A DNA stretch of 64,000 bases from Burkholderiaceae bacterium (lineage in GTDB: Bacteria; Pseudomonadota; Gammaproteobacteria; Burkholderiales; Burkholderiaceae_C): assembly GCA_031253955.1 (NCBI GenBank), contig JAIRVJ010000128.1, positions 1-64,000 on the forward strand. Direction: 5' to 3'. Shown here piece by piece: positions 2,984-63,467 of this stretch. The stretch's first letter is position 1; each line of letters begins with the position of its first letter. The position numbers were made by a program, and so were the translations under genes. The notes under the pieces were generated by a model, which worked only from the letters and a program-made list of their open reading frames with translations, did not search any database and had not been told where the DNA came from.

Positions 2984-2997
2984 CCCAACTCCTGCTG

Positions 2998-3396
2998 TCA
3001 GGCCGGGTGCCGTGAAAACTGATGGGCAACCACCTGCCACCGTTCGCCTCCCTTGACGAAAAAGAACATGTCTCTGCCGTCTGTGCGGGTGGCGCCGCCG
3101 CCCACGTCAAAGGACATGACGTAGGAGTACACGACCACCGCCGAGTTGCCGTGAACGCGGACGACGGGATCATGTTCCTCCCAGCCATGAATATGGGCCA
3201 TGTTGCAAAAGCCCTTCCATTGCGCGATGCACGCGGCCCGGCCATCCAGGCGGTGATGATCCGTGGGGGTGATGGTCACCATGTCCGGGTGAAAGAACTT
3301 GGCAAGATCGTCCGGGTTGCCCTTGGTCCAGGCATCGTTCATGGCGCGGACGGTGGCCCAGACTTCCTGTTGGATCGGGTCGGTGAAAGAAACCAT
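2998..3396 (-). CDS. NTF2/SnoaL-like domain protein, copy B
   Basis: 133-codon ORF strongly similar to the one at 3721-4119 ([19 protein letters not shown]..., GRDMFFFVK). Confidence 0.7.
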
Positions 3397-3702: not shown

Positions 3703-3720
3703 GGCAATTGTTGTGGTCCG

Positions 3721-4119
3721 TCAGGCCGGATAAGGCGAAAACTGATCGGCAACCGCCCACCACCTTTGGCCTTCCTTGACGAAGAAGAACATATCTCTGC
3801 CGCCCATGCTGACGGTGTTGCCGCCCATGTCAAAGGACATGTCGAAGTCATAGGCGACCACCGCCGAGTTGCCATAGACATAAATGACGGGATCTTTTTC
3901 TTCCCAGTAATGAATGCGCGCCGCATTGCAAAACCCCTTCCATGCGGCCACGCACGCGGCCCCGCCATTCAAGCGGTGACGGTCCGTGGGGGTGATGACT
4001 ACCATGTCCCGGTGAAAAAATTTGGCAAGATCGTCCGGGTTGCCCTTGGTCCAGGCATCGTTCATCGCGCGGACAGTCGTCCAGATTTCCTGTTTGGTCG
4101 GGTCGGTGAAGGAAGTCAT
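3721..4119 (-). CDS. NTF2/SnoaL-like domain protein, copy A
   Basis: 133-codon ORF starting MTSFTDPTKQEIW, tandem paralogue of 2998-3396. Confidence 0.7.
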   Translation of the reverse strand: MTSFTDPTKQEIWTTVRAMNDAWTKGNPDDLAKFFHRDMVVITPTDRHRLNGGAACVAAWKGFCNAARIHYWEEKDPVIYVYGNSAVVAYDFDMSFDMGGNTVSMGGRDMFFFVKEGQRWWAVADQFSPYPA

Positions 4120-13160: not shown

Positions 13161-13441
13161 CGTTATTCCCGCGCAGGCGCACAGGTGCTAACTGGGGGTG
13201 AGTGCACGGTTTTCTCCCGCCCCCGCGTGCGGGGGAGGGCTGGGGGGGGGGCGCAGGGCGCTGAAAGAAGTACCGCGTTTGCGATGCGTCGCGCTGCCCC
13301 CATCCCAACCCTCCCCCGCACGCGGGGGAAGGAGACCAGCTTCCCTCCTCCGTGTGCGGGGGAAGGTCAGGGCGGTGGAGAGCGGCGCAAAATCCTCTCG
13401 ATGCTCCAAGTTGGCGCCCACGCTCTTTCGCGGAAATGACG
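13161..13441 (+). repeat. Composite nested inverted-repeat element (REP-like), copy 1
   Basis: Outer arms CGTTATTCCCGCGCAGGCGC... / ...GCTCTTTCGCGGAAATGACG enclosing two CCCCCGC(G/A)NGCGGGGGA palindromes; collinear with 29295-29533. Confidence 0.8.
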
Positions 13442-14105: not shown

Positions 14106-14146
14106 GGTTGAATCGAAAACGCTATGCCTTGGGCAAAATTTCTGAA

Positions 14147-14232
14147 TTGATAGCTGACTGCCAAGGTATAATATATGTTTTCTCATATTTTATATCACAA
14201 ATACATACAAAACTTTGGCAATTAGCTATCAA
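14147..14232. repeat. 86-bp AT-rich element with TTGATAGCT/AGCTATCAA ends (copy 1)
   Basis: Perfect 9-bp terminal inverted repeat, inner TGCCAA/TTGGCA. Confidence 0.85.
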
Positions 14233-14327
14233 ATAAAGAGTGTTTCCCTCCTGTCTGTGCTGCCTCTATTTCTCGCCAGGAAAGTTTTTCGGCCCATTGC
14301 TCCCAATAGAGTCCCCCAGCAAAAGCA

Positions 14328-21914: not shown

Positions 21915-22000
21915 TTGATAGTTATATGCCTTGTTGTTTCATAGATTTAAAACACTTTTCTACATAAAAATTAAGTTACAACAAGGCAGTAAGCTATCAA
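21915..22000. repeat. 86-bp AT-rich element (copy 2)
   Basis: TTGATAGTT ... AGCTATCAA; inner perfect GCCTTGTTGT/ACAACAAGGC. Confidence 0.85.
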
Positions 22001-25471: not shown

Positions 25472-25557
25472 TTTATAGCTAACTGTCATTTTTATATATA
25501 GTTTTTAGATATTTTCATATATAAAAAATATGTTTTACCTTGATGCGAAGCTATCAA
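25472..25557. repeat. 86-bp AT-rich element (copy 3)
   Basis: TTTATAGCT ... AGCTATCAA, intergenic between convergent genes. Confidence 0.75.
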
Positions 25558-27700: not shown

Positions 27701-28318
27701 ATGTTCACCGGCATCATCACCGCCGTCGGCCGTATCGCCCACGTGCGCGATCTGGGCGCGGGCAGCGCGCACGGCAAGCGGCTGACGCTGCAAGCGCCCG
27801 CGGGCTATCTGGCCGATGCGCAGCCGGGCGAAAGCATCGCCATCAACGGCGCTTGCATGACCGTCACGGAGTTAGACGCACCCGCCGGGCGCTTTGCGGT
27901 GGACGTTTCCGCCGAATCGCTGGCGCGCACCGCCGGTCTGGATCGCTCCGGCCCGGTGAATCTGGAACGTGCACTGCGCGCCAGCGACCGGCTGGGCGGG
28001 CACATCGTCTCCGGTCACGTCGATGGCGTGGGCGCGGTTACGTGCATGGCGCCGGTGGGCGAAAGCTGGCTGCTGGCCGTGCAAGCGCCGCGCGAGCTGG
28101 GCAAGTTCCTGGCCTACAAAGGCTCCATCGCCGTCAACGGCGTGAGCCTGACGGTCAATCAAGTCACCGATACCGCCGACGGCGCGGAAATTCGCATCAA
28201 CCTCATCCCGCATACCGTGCAAAACACCGCCCTGCACACGCTGGCCGCGGGCGCGCGGGTGAATCTGGAAATCGACCTGATCGCCCGCTACGTGGAAAGA
28301 ATGCTCGCTTTCCCGTAG
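27701..28318 (+). CDS. ribE: Riboflavin synthase alpha chain
   Basis: MFTGIITAVGRI, GHIVSGHVDGVG, VNGVSLTVN; stop TAG lies in the GTAGGGG repeat. Confidence 0.93.
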   Translation: MFTGIITAVGRIAHVRDLGAGSAHGKRLTLQAPAGYLADAQPGESIAINGACMTVTELDAPAGRFAVDVSAESLARTAGLDRSGPVNLERALRASDRLGGHIVSGHVDGVGAVTCMAPVGESWLLAVQAPRELGKFLAYKGSIAVNGVSLTVNQVTDTADGAEIRINLIPHTVQNTALHTLAAGARVNLEIDLIARYVERMLAFP

Positions 28319-28405
28319 GGGTGCAAAATCTTTCGCCCTGCAGCGCCTCATTCTCAAAGCGCCGTTTTTCGTTCACCGCAAGGGCGAAAAATTTTTCGCC
28401 CCTAC
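28314..28405. repeat. Double-palindrome repeat GTAGGGG..TTTCGCCCTGC...AAGGGCGAAAAATTTTTCGCCCCTAC
   Basis: Homologous in layout to 63379-63467; overlaps the 3' ends of ribE and ogt. Confidence 0.85.
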
Positions 28406-29603: not shown

Positions 29604-29689
29604 ATAATAGCTGATAGCCAATTCATGAACTTATTTTTTAAATTTTTTATATATTAAAATCATGTTATACTTTGATATATAGCTATTGT
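29604..29689. repeat. 86-bp AT-rich element (copy 4)
   Basis: ATAATAGCT ... AGCTATTGT with the same 86-bp spacing. Confidence 0.75.
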
Positions 29690-38684: not shown

Positions 38685-40031
38685 ATGATCGGCGCTTTGT
38701 ACGACCTGGCCATTTGGGCGGCGCAGCCGCTGTTGCGGAGCAAATTGCGCCGCCGTGGGCGGGCCGAGCCAGGATATCTGCACGCGGTGGAAGAACGCTT
38801 TGGGCATTACACGCAGCCCCGCCAGCCTTCGGCTGCCCCTCTCCCCACCCCTCTCCCGCAAGCGGGAGAGGGAGCAAACGCCAATCCGCATGATGGGCAG
38901 CCGCTGATCTGGATCCACGCCGTCTCGCTAGGCGAAACGCGCGCGGCGGCCATCCTGCTCCACGAATTGCGCGCGCGCTGGCCGCAGATGCGCCTGCTGC
39001 TCACGCACGGCACGGCCACCGGGCGGGCCGAAGGCGGCAAGCTGCTGCGCGCGGGCGACGTGCAGGTCTGGCAGCCGTGGGATACGCCCGCCGCCACGCG
39101 GCGCTTTTACGCGCACTTTAGGCCCGACGCGGGCGTGCTGATGGAAACCGAAATCTGGCCGAACCTGATCGGCGAAGGCCGACGCGCGGGCGTGCCTATT
39201 GTTCTTGCCAATGCGCGCTTGTCGGAAAAATCCCTGCGCGGCGCGCGGCGCGCGGCGGCTGTGTTGCGCCCGGCTTACGCGGCCTTGTCTGCCGTGTGGG
39301 CGCAAACCGAGGCCGACGCCGCCCGCCTGCACCAGGCCGGAGCGCACGGCGTGGCCGTGCTCGGCAACCTGAAATTCGACGCCGCGCCCGACGCCACCGC
39401 CGTCGCGCGGGGGCAGGCTTGGCGCGCGCGGTGCGGCAAGCCCGTCGTCATGCTCGCCAGTTCGCGCGAAGGCGAAGAAGTCATGCTGCTGCAAGCCCTG
39501 CGCGCCCAGCCGCCGCGCCTGCCCATCCAGTGGCTGATCGTGCCGCGCCACCCGCAGCGGTTTGACGCCGTGGCCGATTTGATTGGCACGGCGGGCTGGC
39601 CCGTGAGCCGCCGCAGCGGGTGGGCCGATGACGCGCCACCAGCCGATGCCGCCAACGCTATTTGGCTGGGCGACAGCCTGGGTGAAATGGCCGCCTGGTA
39701 CACGCTGGCCGACGCCGCGCTGCTGGGCGGCAGCTTCGCGCCGCTGGGCGGGCAGAACCTGATTGAAGCGGCGGCCTGCGGCTGCCCGGTGCTCATGGGG
39801 CCGCACACCTACAACTTCGACGAGGCCGCCCACCTGGCGCTGCAAGCAAACGCCGCGCTGCGCGCAGCCGGCATGGCCGACGCCGTGGCGCAAACCGCCG
39901 CCCTGCTGCAAGAGCGCGCGCAACACACCGCCATGACGCAAGCGGCCCGCGCCTTTGCCGCCAGCCAGCGCGGCGCAGCGCAACGCATGGCCGGGGCGCT
40001 GGCGCGGTTGCCTGGCATTGCGCGTTCGTAG
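38685..40031 (+). CDS. waaA: 3-deoxy-D-manno-octulosonic acid transferase
   Basis: IWIHAVSLGETRAA, METEIWPNLI, NARLSEKS, FAPLGGQNLIEAAACG. Confidence 0.93.
   Translation: MIGALYDLAIWAAQPLLRSKLRRRGRAEPGYLHAVEERFGHYTQPRQPSAAPLPTPLPQAGEGANANPHDGQPLIWIHAVSLGETRAAAILLHELRARWPQMRLLLTHGTATGRAEGGKLLRAGDVQVWQPWDTPAATRRFYAHFRPDAGVLMETEIWPNLIGEGRRAGVPIVLANARLSEKSLRGARRAAAVLRPAYAALSAVWAQTEADAARLHQAGAHGVAVLGNLKFDAAPDATAVARGQAWRARCGKPVVMLASSREGEEVMLLQALRAQPPRLPIQWLIVPRHPQRFDAVADLIGTAGWPVSRRSGWADDAPPADAANAIWLGDSLGEMAAWYTLADAALLGGSFAPLGGQNLIEAAACGCPVLMGPHTYNFDEAAHLALQANAALRAAGMADAVAQTAALLQERAQHTAMTQAARAFAASQRGAAQRMAGALARLPGIARS
38821..38872. repeat. 52-bp REP-like element translated in frame in waaA
   Basis: GCCAGCCTTCGGCTGCCCCTCTCCCCACCCCTCTCCCGCAAGCGGGAGAGGG. 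Confidence 0.9.
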
Positions 40032-40055
40032 GGGCGGAAAATTTTTTGCCCTTAC
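40028..40055. repeat. GTAGGGGCG palindrome at the waaA stop codon
   Basis: GTAGGGGCGGAAAATTTTTTGCCCTTAC; TAG at 40029-40031 is the waaA stop. Confidence 0.85.
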
Positions 40056-40069
40056 GCTACGCTAGATTT

Positions 40070-40155
40070 TCTATAGCTTGATACCTTGATTTATATTTTA
40101 TTTACCAGTATTTTATATGCCAAATATATACAATAAATTGGCTTAAAGCTCTCAA
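40070..40155. repeat. 86-bp AT-rich element (copy 5, degenerate ends)
   Basis: TCTATAGCT ... AGCTCTCAA, 86 bp. Confidence 0.7.
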
Positions 40156-40183: not shown

Positions 40184-40326
40184 GGCGATCGCATCTAAAT
40201 TCCATGAGTTGAATTTCGACGCGACAAATAACACTTGTGCCGTCGTAGGGGCGAAAAATTTTTCGCCCCTACATCCGTGCTCCATCGCCAACTGGTTGAT
40301 TCTTAAGAAATTCAGATGCGATCGCC
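40184..40326. repeat. Nested palindromic element with GGCGATCGCATCT arms around a perfect 28-bp palindrome (40245-40272)
   Basis: Arms GGCGATCGCATCT / AGATGCGATCGCC; inner GTAGGGGCGAAAAATTTTTCGCCCCTAC. Confidence 0.85.
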
Positions 40327-43580: not shown

Positions 43581-43666
43581 TTGATAGCTGGATACCAGTA
43601 ATCTATCTAATTTTCATATATTTTTATACGTGAAAATCAGGCTATACTATGGCAACAAGCTATCAA
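43581..43666. repeat. 86-bp AT-rich element (copy 6)
   Basis: Perfect TTGATAGCT ... AGCTATCAA, 86 bp, between convergent genes. Confidence 0.85.
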
Positions 43667-55734: not shown

Positions 55735-55820
55735 TTAATAGCTGCGTGCCATTGTACAGTGTATATATACTACATAAAACATGGATAAATACATACCACA
55801 CCATGGTGTAGAGCTATCGA
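55735..55820. repeat. 86-bp AT-rich element (copy 7)
   Basis: TTAATAGCT ... AGCTATCGA; inner GTGCCAT / ATGGTGT. Confidence 0.8.
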
Positions 55821-63160: not shown

Positions 63161-63247
63161 TTAATAGCTTGTTACAATTATATAATATGTGTTTGATATA
63201 TATTTTATTCTGCAAAACCATGTGATATATTGGCAAACAGCTATCAA
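63161..63247. repeat. 87-bp AT-rich element (copy 8)
   Basis: TTAATAGCT ... AGCTATCAA. Confidence 0.8.
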
Positions 63248-63378: not shown

Positions 63379-63467
63379 GTAGGGGCGAAAAATCTTTCGC
63401 CCTGCGGCGTTTCGTTCAAAACGGCGTGATTTTTTGGGCACAAGGACGAAAATTTTTTCGCCCCTAC
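63379..63467. repeat. Double-palindrome GTAGGGGCGAAAAAT repeat (second full copy)
   Basis: GTAGGGGCGAAAAATCTTTCGCCCTGC...GGACGAAAATTTTTTCGCCCCTAC. Confidence 0.85.

Follow-up and report, generated by a model that had tools for sequence, protein, structure and literature searches.

The element at positions 14147–14232 raises the question of what holds an A/T-rich intergenic sequence at a single length while its interior diverges, for which the original prediction had offered mobilization or structural selection. That prediction claimed eight copies in the window (the whole 64,000-nucleotide stretch analyzed here), and all eight were located; the core measures 86 bp in seven of them and 87 bp in the eighth. 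We refer to this two-armed, dyad-symmetric form as type B; its copies, none of which is assigned to a strand, are as follows.

14147–14232, no strand: type-B dyad element, 86-bp core; conserved dyad at about 14136–14243; both ends exact
21915–22000, no strand: type-B dyad element, 86-bp core; 3′ of the glutamate-cysteine ligase gene
25472–25557, no strand: type-B dyad element, 86-bp core; between convergent LOG-like and tyrosine phosphatase genes
29604–29689, no strand: type-B dyad element, 86-bp core; outer ends degenerate; upstream of a phosphoglucomutase-family gene
40070–40155, no strand: type-B dyad element, 86-bp core; between convergent genes; ends deviate from the consensus
43581–43666, no strand: type-B dyad element, 86-bp core; between convergent genes; both ends exact; top match to model R1 (E 1.4e-18)
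55735–55820, no strand: type-B dyad element, 86-bp core; 3′ of the enoyl-CoA hydratase gene
63161–63247, no strand: type-B dyad element, 87-bp core

The copy at 14147 matched models R1 and R2 at E-values of 7e-18 and 1e-20, respectively, the copy itself being included in both models. Terminal inverted repeats, as in a MITE, are present as the consensus ends TTGATAGCT and AGCTATCAA. The window contains 18 occurrences of TTGATAGCT with at most one mismatch, compared with 4.5 ± 2.0 after shuffling (none of 100 shuffles reached 18). The ends are a consensus and not invariant, and both are exact only in the copies at 14147 and 43581. Conservation proved wider than first described, since mirrored conserved bases also occupy positions of about −11 through −1 on either side, extending the symmetry by about 11 bp beyond each end, so that the conserved dyad measures about 108 bp. 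In the window's genome, each arm carries T at −7, TTnATAGCT at 1–9, TGCCA at 13–17, YATG at 26–29 and TTT at 32–34, whereas the arm boxes of type B overall are TTnATAGCT at 1–9, TGCC or TGCG at 13–16 and TTT at 32–34 around an A/T center. Length varies by ±1 only, and the variation is located in that center.

Further repeats were noticed in the same DNA. A second family of intergenic palindromes, GTAGGGGCGAAAAATTTTTCGCCCCTAC, occupies 28305–28342, 28368–28405, 40018–40055, 40235–40272 and 63430–63467 of the window; GC-rich CCCTCTCCC..GGGAGAGGG repeats, often paired beside genes, lie at 13208, 13282, 23770, 23841, 29136, 29352, 29435, 37026 and 38822; and a 300-nt direct repeat, 78% identical, is found at 2997–3296 and 3720–4019 within or between coding frames. 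In the Ottowia genome G010, a very long CRISPR array with more than 120 repeats of CRISPR-DR4 extends from L137:17826 to L138:5422.

The window's genome, probably an Ottowia MAG, comprises 2.6 Mb in 167 contigs, of which about 1.13 Mb was sampled. Our first model, built from the sequences of the eight window copies and run on this genome, returned at least 150 scored matches and 739 first-look candidates; a strict gapped pattern, which was too exact, matched nowhere in the genome. Profile search of the 1.13 Mb revealed 137 copies, about one per 8 kb, a density that may be somewhat overestimated because the sampled contigs were picked for containing matches; by extrapolation, the genome would hold roughly 300. 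Of the genome and its relatives, for which the original prediction had proposed a search, the former thus carries hundreds of copies by extrapolation and the latter show the same length plan. When TTGATAGCT..AGCTATCAA pairs lying 20–400 bp apart were collected from the 1.13 Mb, with at most one mismatch per end and the interior unconstrained, 56 were spaced at 86 bp, 17 at 87 bp and 4 at 85 bp, and every other spacing occurred at most twice. The preferred 86-bp spacing, whose absence the original prediction had named as the outcome that would speak against it, thus held up in this sample. Aligned by their arms, 90 copies measured 86 bp, 32 measured 87 bp and 11 measured 85 bp.

Comparison of 133 type-B copies gave a mean pairwise identity of 0.567, against 0.564 when every column was shuffled; the copies therefore behave nearly as if each had been drawn independently from a single profile. 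None of them is a recent duplicate of another, the closest pair being only 75.5% identical, and since the copies show no relatedness beyond the profile, their constant length is not due to shared recent ancestry. The flanks, for which a check for target duplications had been suggested, yielded none belonging to type B itself: direct repeats of 4, 5, 8 and 9 bp showed no excess at 16 offsets around the elements. The mobile component is instead a separate MITE that inserts into the dyad elements. This MITE-like unit, with ends CCTGATTRGCAACATACCTCAGAT, was found as 15 paired copies across the sampled part of the window's genome, for example at the following sites.

L086:85-330, MITE-like unit
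L077:9396-9698, MITE-like unit
L089:5847-6108, MITE-like unit
L095:16784-17040, MITE-like unit
L102:10619-10900, MITE-like unit
L103:3008-3260, MITE-like unit

The unit is mostly 94–309 bp long, often with internal GGATTCCCGC..GCGGGAAT inverted repeats. When the unit was excised in script together with one 8-bp duplicate, 7 cases yielded a type-B element of full length (E 6e-12 to 2e-21), and in these 7 the 8-bp duplication was centered no more than about 1.5 bp from the dyad axis; most of the remaining copies sit in type-A-like (see below) or half elements. The two duplicates shared at least 6 of their 8 bases in 60% of cases, compared with 5% for swapped partners.

The same 85/86-bp plan was found in Ottowia beijingensis (G002) and in a second Ottowia (G007), with arms TTGATAGCTGCTTGCGC..GATTTCAGAT, and an exact pattern joining both consensus types identified 54 stretches among 84,980 genomes, in Ottowia, Comamonas, Acidovorax and further Comamonadaceae or Pseudomonadota MAGs. 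Both of these Ottowia, as well as Comamonas and Acidovorax, combine the length plan with a different inner consensus, and TTT is fixed at 32–34 in both consensus types despite the differing neighboring boxes. A model built from the relatives only, with the window's genome left out (R3), recovered copies of the window's genome at 1.6e-9; among 150 genomes spread over the order, under strict filters and a threshold of 1e-7, it matched only the window's genome and C. testosteroni. Upstream of tlyA (S4 and FtsJ domains), an element occupies the same site in 15 Comamonas species and is exactly 86 bp in all of them. The alignment of these orthologs contains no gap runs inside the element, compared with 65 in the 150 columns to its left and 46 in the 80 columns to its right, and core columns were 0.89 identical versus 0.60 for free columns. 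Since the relatives retain the length in place while most bases change, the copies have the look of functional sites on the chromosome. In the window's genome, no TlyA scored above threshold. At site L151, the neighboring species contain no element and their flanks differ as well, so that this site does not bear on in-place evolution, and some species likewise lack the element at a given site.

The tlyA site also accommodates a shorter relative, type A, in three Comamonas (L248, L256, L260) and in Ottowia G010 and G022, and neither form is present there in some species. Type A is a short asymmetric element consisting of ATAGCT, a hairpin and AGGCC-ATTT, whereas the window copies are of the two-armed form; the two types have the ATAGCT box in common and can hold the same orthologous site. 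TTT lies at 43–45 in type A, eleven bases further than the 32–34 of type B as read from the sequence, which would correspond to about one helical turn. Three Ottowia contained 128 type-A copies in 500 kb. Repeats of an ATAGCTG type in Comamonadaceae, which the original prediction had mentioned, are real: they are type A, pieces of which have been described from Acidovorax ebreus and Polaromonas (PMC5217627). That study left unexplained the spaced motif pairs GCTTAT(N)5AAGCG in A. ebreus and ATAGCT(N)22CAAAAG in Polaromonas naphthalenivorans; in A. ebreus the pairs were located in 44 convergent versus 4 divergent gaps, and they were kept after removal of duplicates. They resemble type A in sequence (L256 reads GCTTATCAGATAAGCG) and in convergent placement, but PMC5217627 covers two short words of the short form only, and describes neither the 86-bp two-armed form nor its conservation in place, its spacing rule or its use as a MITE target. 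The literature searched, which included few subscription journals and no supplementary tables, yielded no description of this two-armed form; searches on sequence words returned only unrelated sequences, those on Ottowia and MITEs nothing relevant, and the Comamonadaceae genera looked for appear in neither a GTAG-repeat paper nor a stem-loop catalogue.

The position of the elements was analyzed relative to genes called with our own coding-model script, not a published gene finder. In none of the 133 copies did the overlap with a predicted gene exceed 20 bp, which bears out the intergenic placement described for the window. Convergent gaps were enriched (odds ratio 4.2, p 5e-8), holding about a third of the type-B copies, and divergent gaps were depleted (odds ratio 0.26, p 7e-6); between co-directional genes, 53 of 76 copies lay closer to the gene 3′ end, so that the placement in convergent gaps and at 3′ ends noted for the eight copies extends to the sampled genome. 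The elements also avoid one another: only 2 of 91 neighbor distances were below 2 kb (13.7–16 expected) and 7 of 91 below 3 kb (26–28 expected), with p <0.0005 at both thresholds when an equal number of copies was placed in real gene gaps under three weightings. In G007, which has the other inner consensus, none of 14 distances was below 3 kb (4.8 expected, p 0.0014), and mutual exclusion in this second species rests on these 14 distances and a uniform null. Type A showed no mutual exclusion in G036 and G002, and slight clustering if anything. Between the two sources offered for the constant length, structural selection is thus favored by the 15 indel-free orthologs, the equal length across genera and the non-random spacing, whereas mobilization is opposed by the lack of recent duplicates and of target duplication.

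These observations point most strongly to a host-maintained DNA-level nucleoprotein site at the ends of transcription units, a candidate role with an inferred mechanism to which we give a probability of roughly 45%. A dedicated putative DNA-binding protein, probably binding symmetrically, would assemble on both arms and wrap or bend the A/T center, thereby fixing the arm-to-arm distance; complexes placed every 7–8 kb at transcription-unit ends might then organize the chromosome, for example as boundaries of supercoil domains, as loading sites for topoisomerase or a nucleoid protein, or as insulation. Type A would be a related shorter form able to occupy the same site, and the complex or its bent center could serve as the landing site of the MITE, whose position on the dyad axis would be a natural footprint of the presumed complex. 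In favor of the nucleoprotein site we count the fixed spacing with a free interior, the lack of relatedness among copies beyond the profile, the in-place conservation, the recurrence of the plan under a different inner consensus in other species, the placement in gene gaps with convergent ones enriched and divergent ones depleted, the mutual exclusion and the axis-centered MITE insertion, as well as the independent recovery by R3 and, from the analyses given below, the absence of a G·T excess over A·C and of intrinsic-terminator structure. Against it stand the modest covariation of the arms, which a pair of independent half-sites does not need, the lack of mutual exclusion in type A, the sense-strand preference of the central T tract (44 versus 18), which hints at a transcription-linked process, and the species without an element at a given site.

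The arms covary modestly beyond independent half-sites, in the window's genome mainly at positions 20, 30 and 31, and the arm variants GTATTT and GATTTT favor like partners (86 like versus 27 mixed). The aggregate z was 6.0 in Comamonas and 8.4 in G007, compared with 1.1 in O. beijingensis; alignment A4 scored 0.219, versus 0.135 when shuffled and at most 0.106 when slid, a score inflated by shared ancestry because A4 mixes species. Such covariation could stem from hairpin or cruciform formation, from coupled symmetric binding, or from the correction of quasi-palindromes at replication. It is also counted in favor of an RNA-level element, in which the transcribed palindrome would fold at mRNA 3′ ends or between genes and set 3′-end processing, stability or termination. 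The 3′-end bias of the copies agrees with this reading, as do the single-strand folds, whose stability exceeds that of mononucleotide shuffles (mean z −3.8), the central T tract, found on the sense strand of co-directional neighbor genes in 44 cases versus 18 on the other strand, and the small number of intrinsic terminators between genes and elements, a comparison weakened by the rarity of such terminators in the window's genome. However, several window copies folded no better than dinucleotide shuffles, and RNA consensus folding of the eight window copies gave nine pairs with negligible covariation. G·T did not exceed A·C along the transcribed direction (216 versus 195), and when 119 elements were read from the neighboring gene, only 1 had the GC-rich hairpin and T run of an intrinsic terminator. 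At the Rfam 15 gathering score, the window matched tRNAs only and 140 kb of relatives matched riboswitches and CRISPR repeats only, with no match at the elements; type A had no clear orientation relative to genes (40 versus 25), and exclusion on a kilobase scale is not expected of an RNA element. We therefore consider the RNA-level reading unlikely. A promoter or operator for the neighboring genes is very improbable: the A/T-rich elements do contain TATAAT-like stretches and the tlyA copies lie upstream of the start codon, but about a third of the copies are between convergent genes, divergent gaps are avoided, the spacing rule is chromosome-wide, and the flanking genes share no common function, those adjoining the window copies encoding the functionally unrelated LolA, glutamate-cysteine ligase, LOG-like protein, tyrosine phosphatase, phosphoglucomutase, PCMT and enoyl-CoA hydratase.

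The main rival is a REPIN- or MITE-like mobile family, that is, an inverted repeat pair with a constrained spacer, spread by a single-copy RAYT (Y1 transposase) or another transposase, that is by now old and persists in part by chance or through a secondary use. REPINs are inverted doublets in which spacer length and pairing are kept with compensatory changes (PMC3116915), which the modest arm covariation of type B parallels, and type B is likewise extragenic with hundreds of copies. A single-copy RAYT-type Y1 transposase gene is located upstream of gltB (named by eye from its N-terminal sequence) in Ottowia and Comamonas:

L283 to L292, e.g. G000:C153, G002:C1:1232604-1233413 and G164:C1:654990-655286: RAYT-like Y1 transposase gene, adjoining gltB

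Around this gltB-linked gene lie GATCTGACCCCAATT-type repeats of its own. In G010, the RAYT gene is directly bordered on both sides by type-A copies in the same orientation; of 30 RAYT loci, however, 4 had an element within 250 bp on the upstream side, 6 on the downstream side and 2 on both sides, whereas two inverted copies invariably flank the known rayt genes (PMC2817692). RAYT flanking is inconsistent, and RAYT was not established as the driver of the element. The absence of recent duplicates and target duplications, the lack of any indel in place over 15 species and the mutual exclusion between copies also argue against mobile spread, and the half-sites have neither the GTAG/GTGG head nor an internal palindrome, their profile consisting of ATAGCT and A/T boxes. 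A mobile origin of this kind thus appears doubtful to us.

Whereas dispersed intergenic palindromes are usually read as relics of small transposons, the evidence here points the opposite way, namely saturated sequence, fixed length, genus-wide conservation in place and a spacing unlike random insertion. The host-maintained nucleoprotein site might, in a more tentative and rather speculative extension, belong to a Comamonadaceae-specific chromosome-organizing system: hundreds of 108-bp dyads at transcription-unit ends, mutually exclusive, with the arm distance fixed by a putative protein complex, inner boxes rewritten genome-wide between species and a single-armed version interchangeable at orthologous sites. 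If a protein binds, Comamonadaceae including the laboratory-friendly Comamonas testosteroni would offer a tractable system for the marking of transcription-unit ends or topological domains, and for the joint change of hundreds of sites and their binder.

Among known systems, type B shares with REPINs and BIMEs the inverted doublet of constrained length (86, 87 or 85 bp), the variable spacer, the extragenic location and the hundreds of copies, but its copies are saturated, with an identity equal to the column-shuffled expectation, rather than a population of closely similar sequences; type B resembles a REPIN in plan but is not classed as one. ERIC and Correia (NEMIS) elements are short, dyad-symmetric, intergenic MITE-like repeats in tens to hundreds of copies, derived from a mobile consensus. 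Type B is likewise short, dyad-symmetric, intergenic and numerous, but differs from them in having no target duplication, recent copies or length drift. matS, Noc sites and strong gyrase sites are dispersed, apparently static and position-selected, and are short or lack a sharp consensus. By analogy, type B may be of their kind in being dispersed, apparently static and position-selected, but its unit is a roughly 108-bp dyad, located at gene 3′ ends, in which each arm carries several boxes and whose binder is only presumed. Type B is a kind of dispersed intergenic palindrome, with a real chance of being a distinct chromosome-site system.
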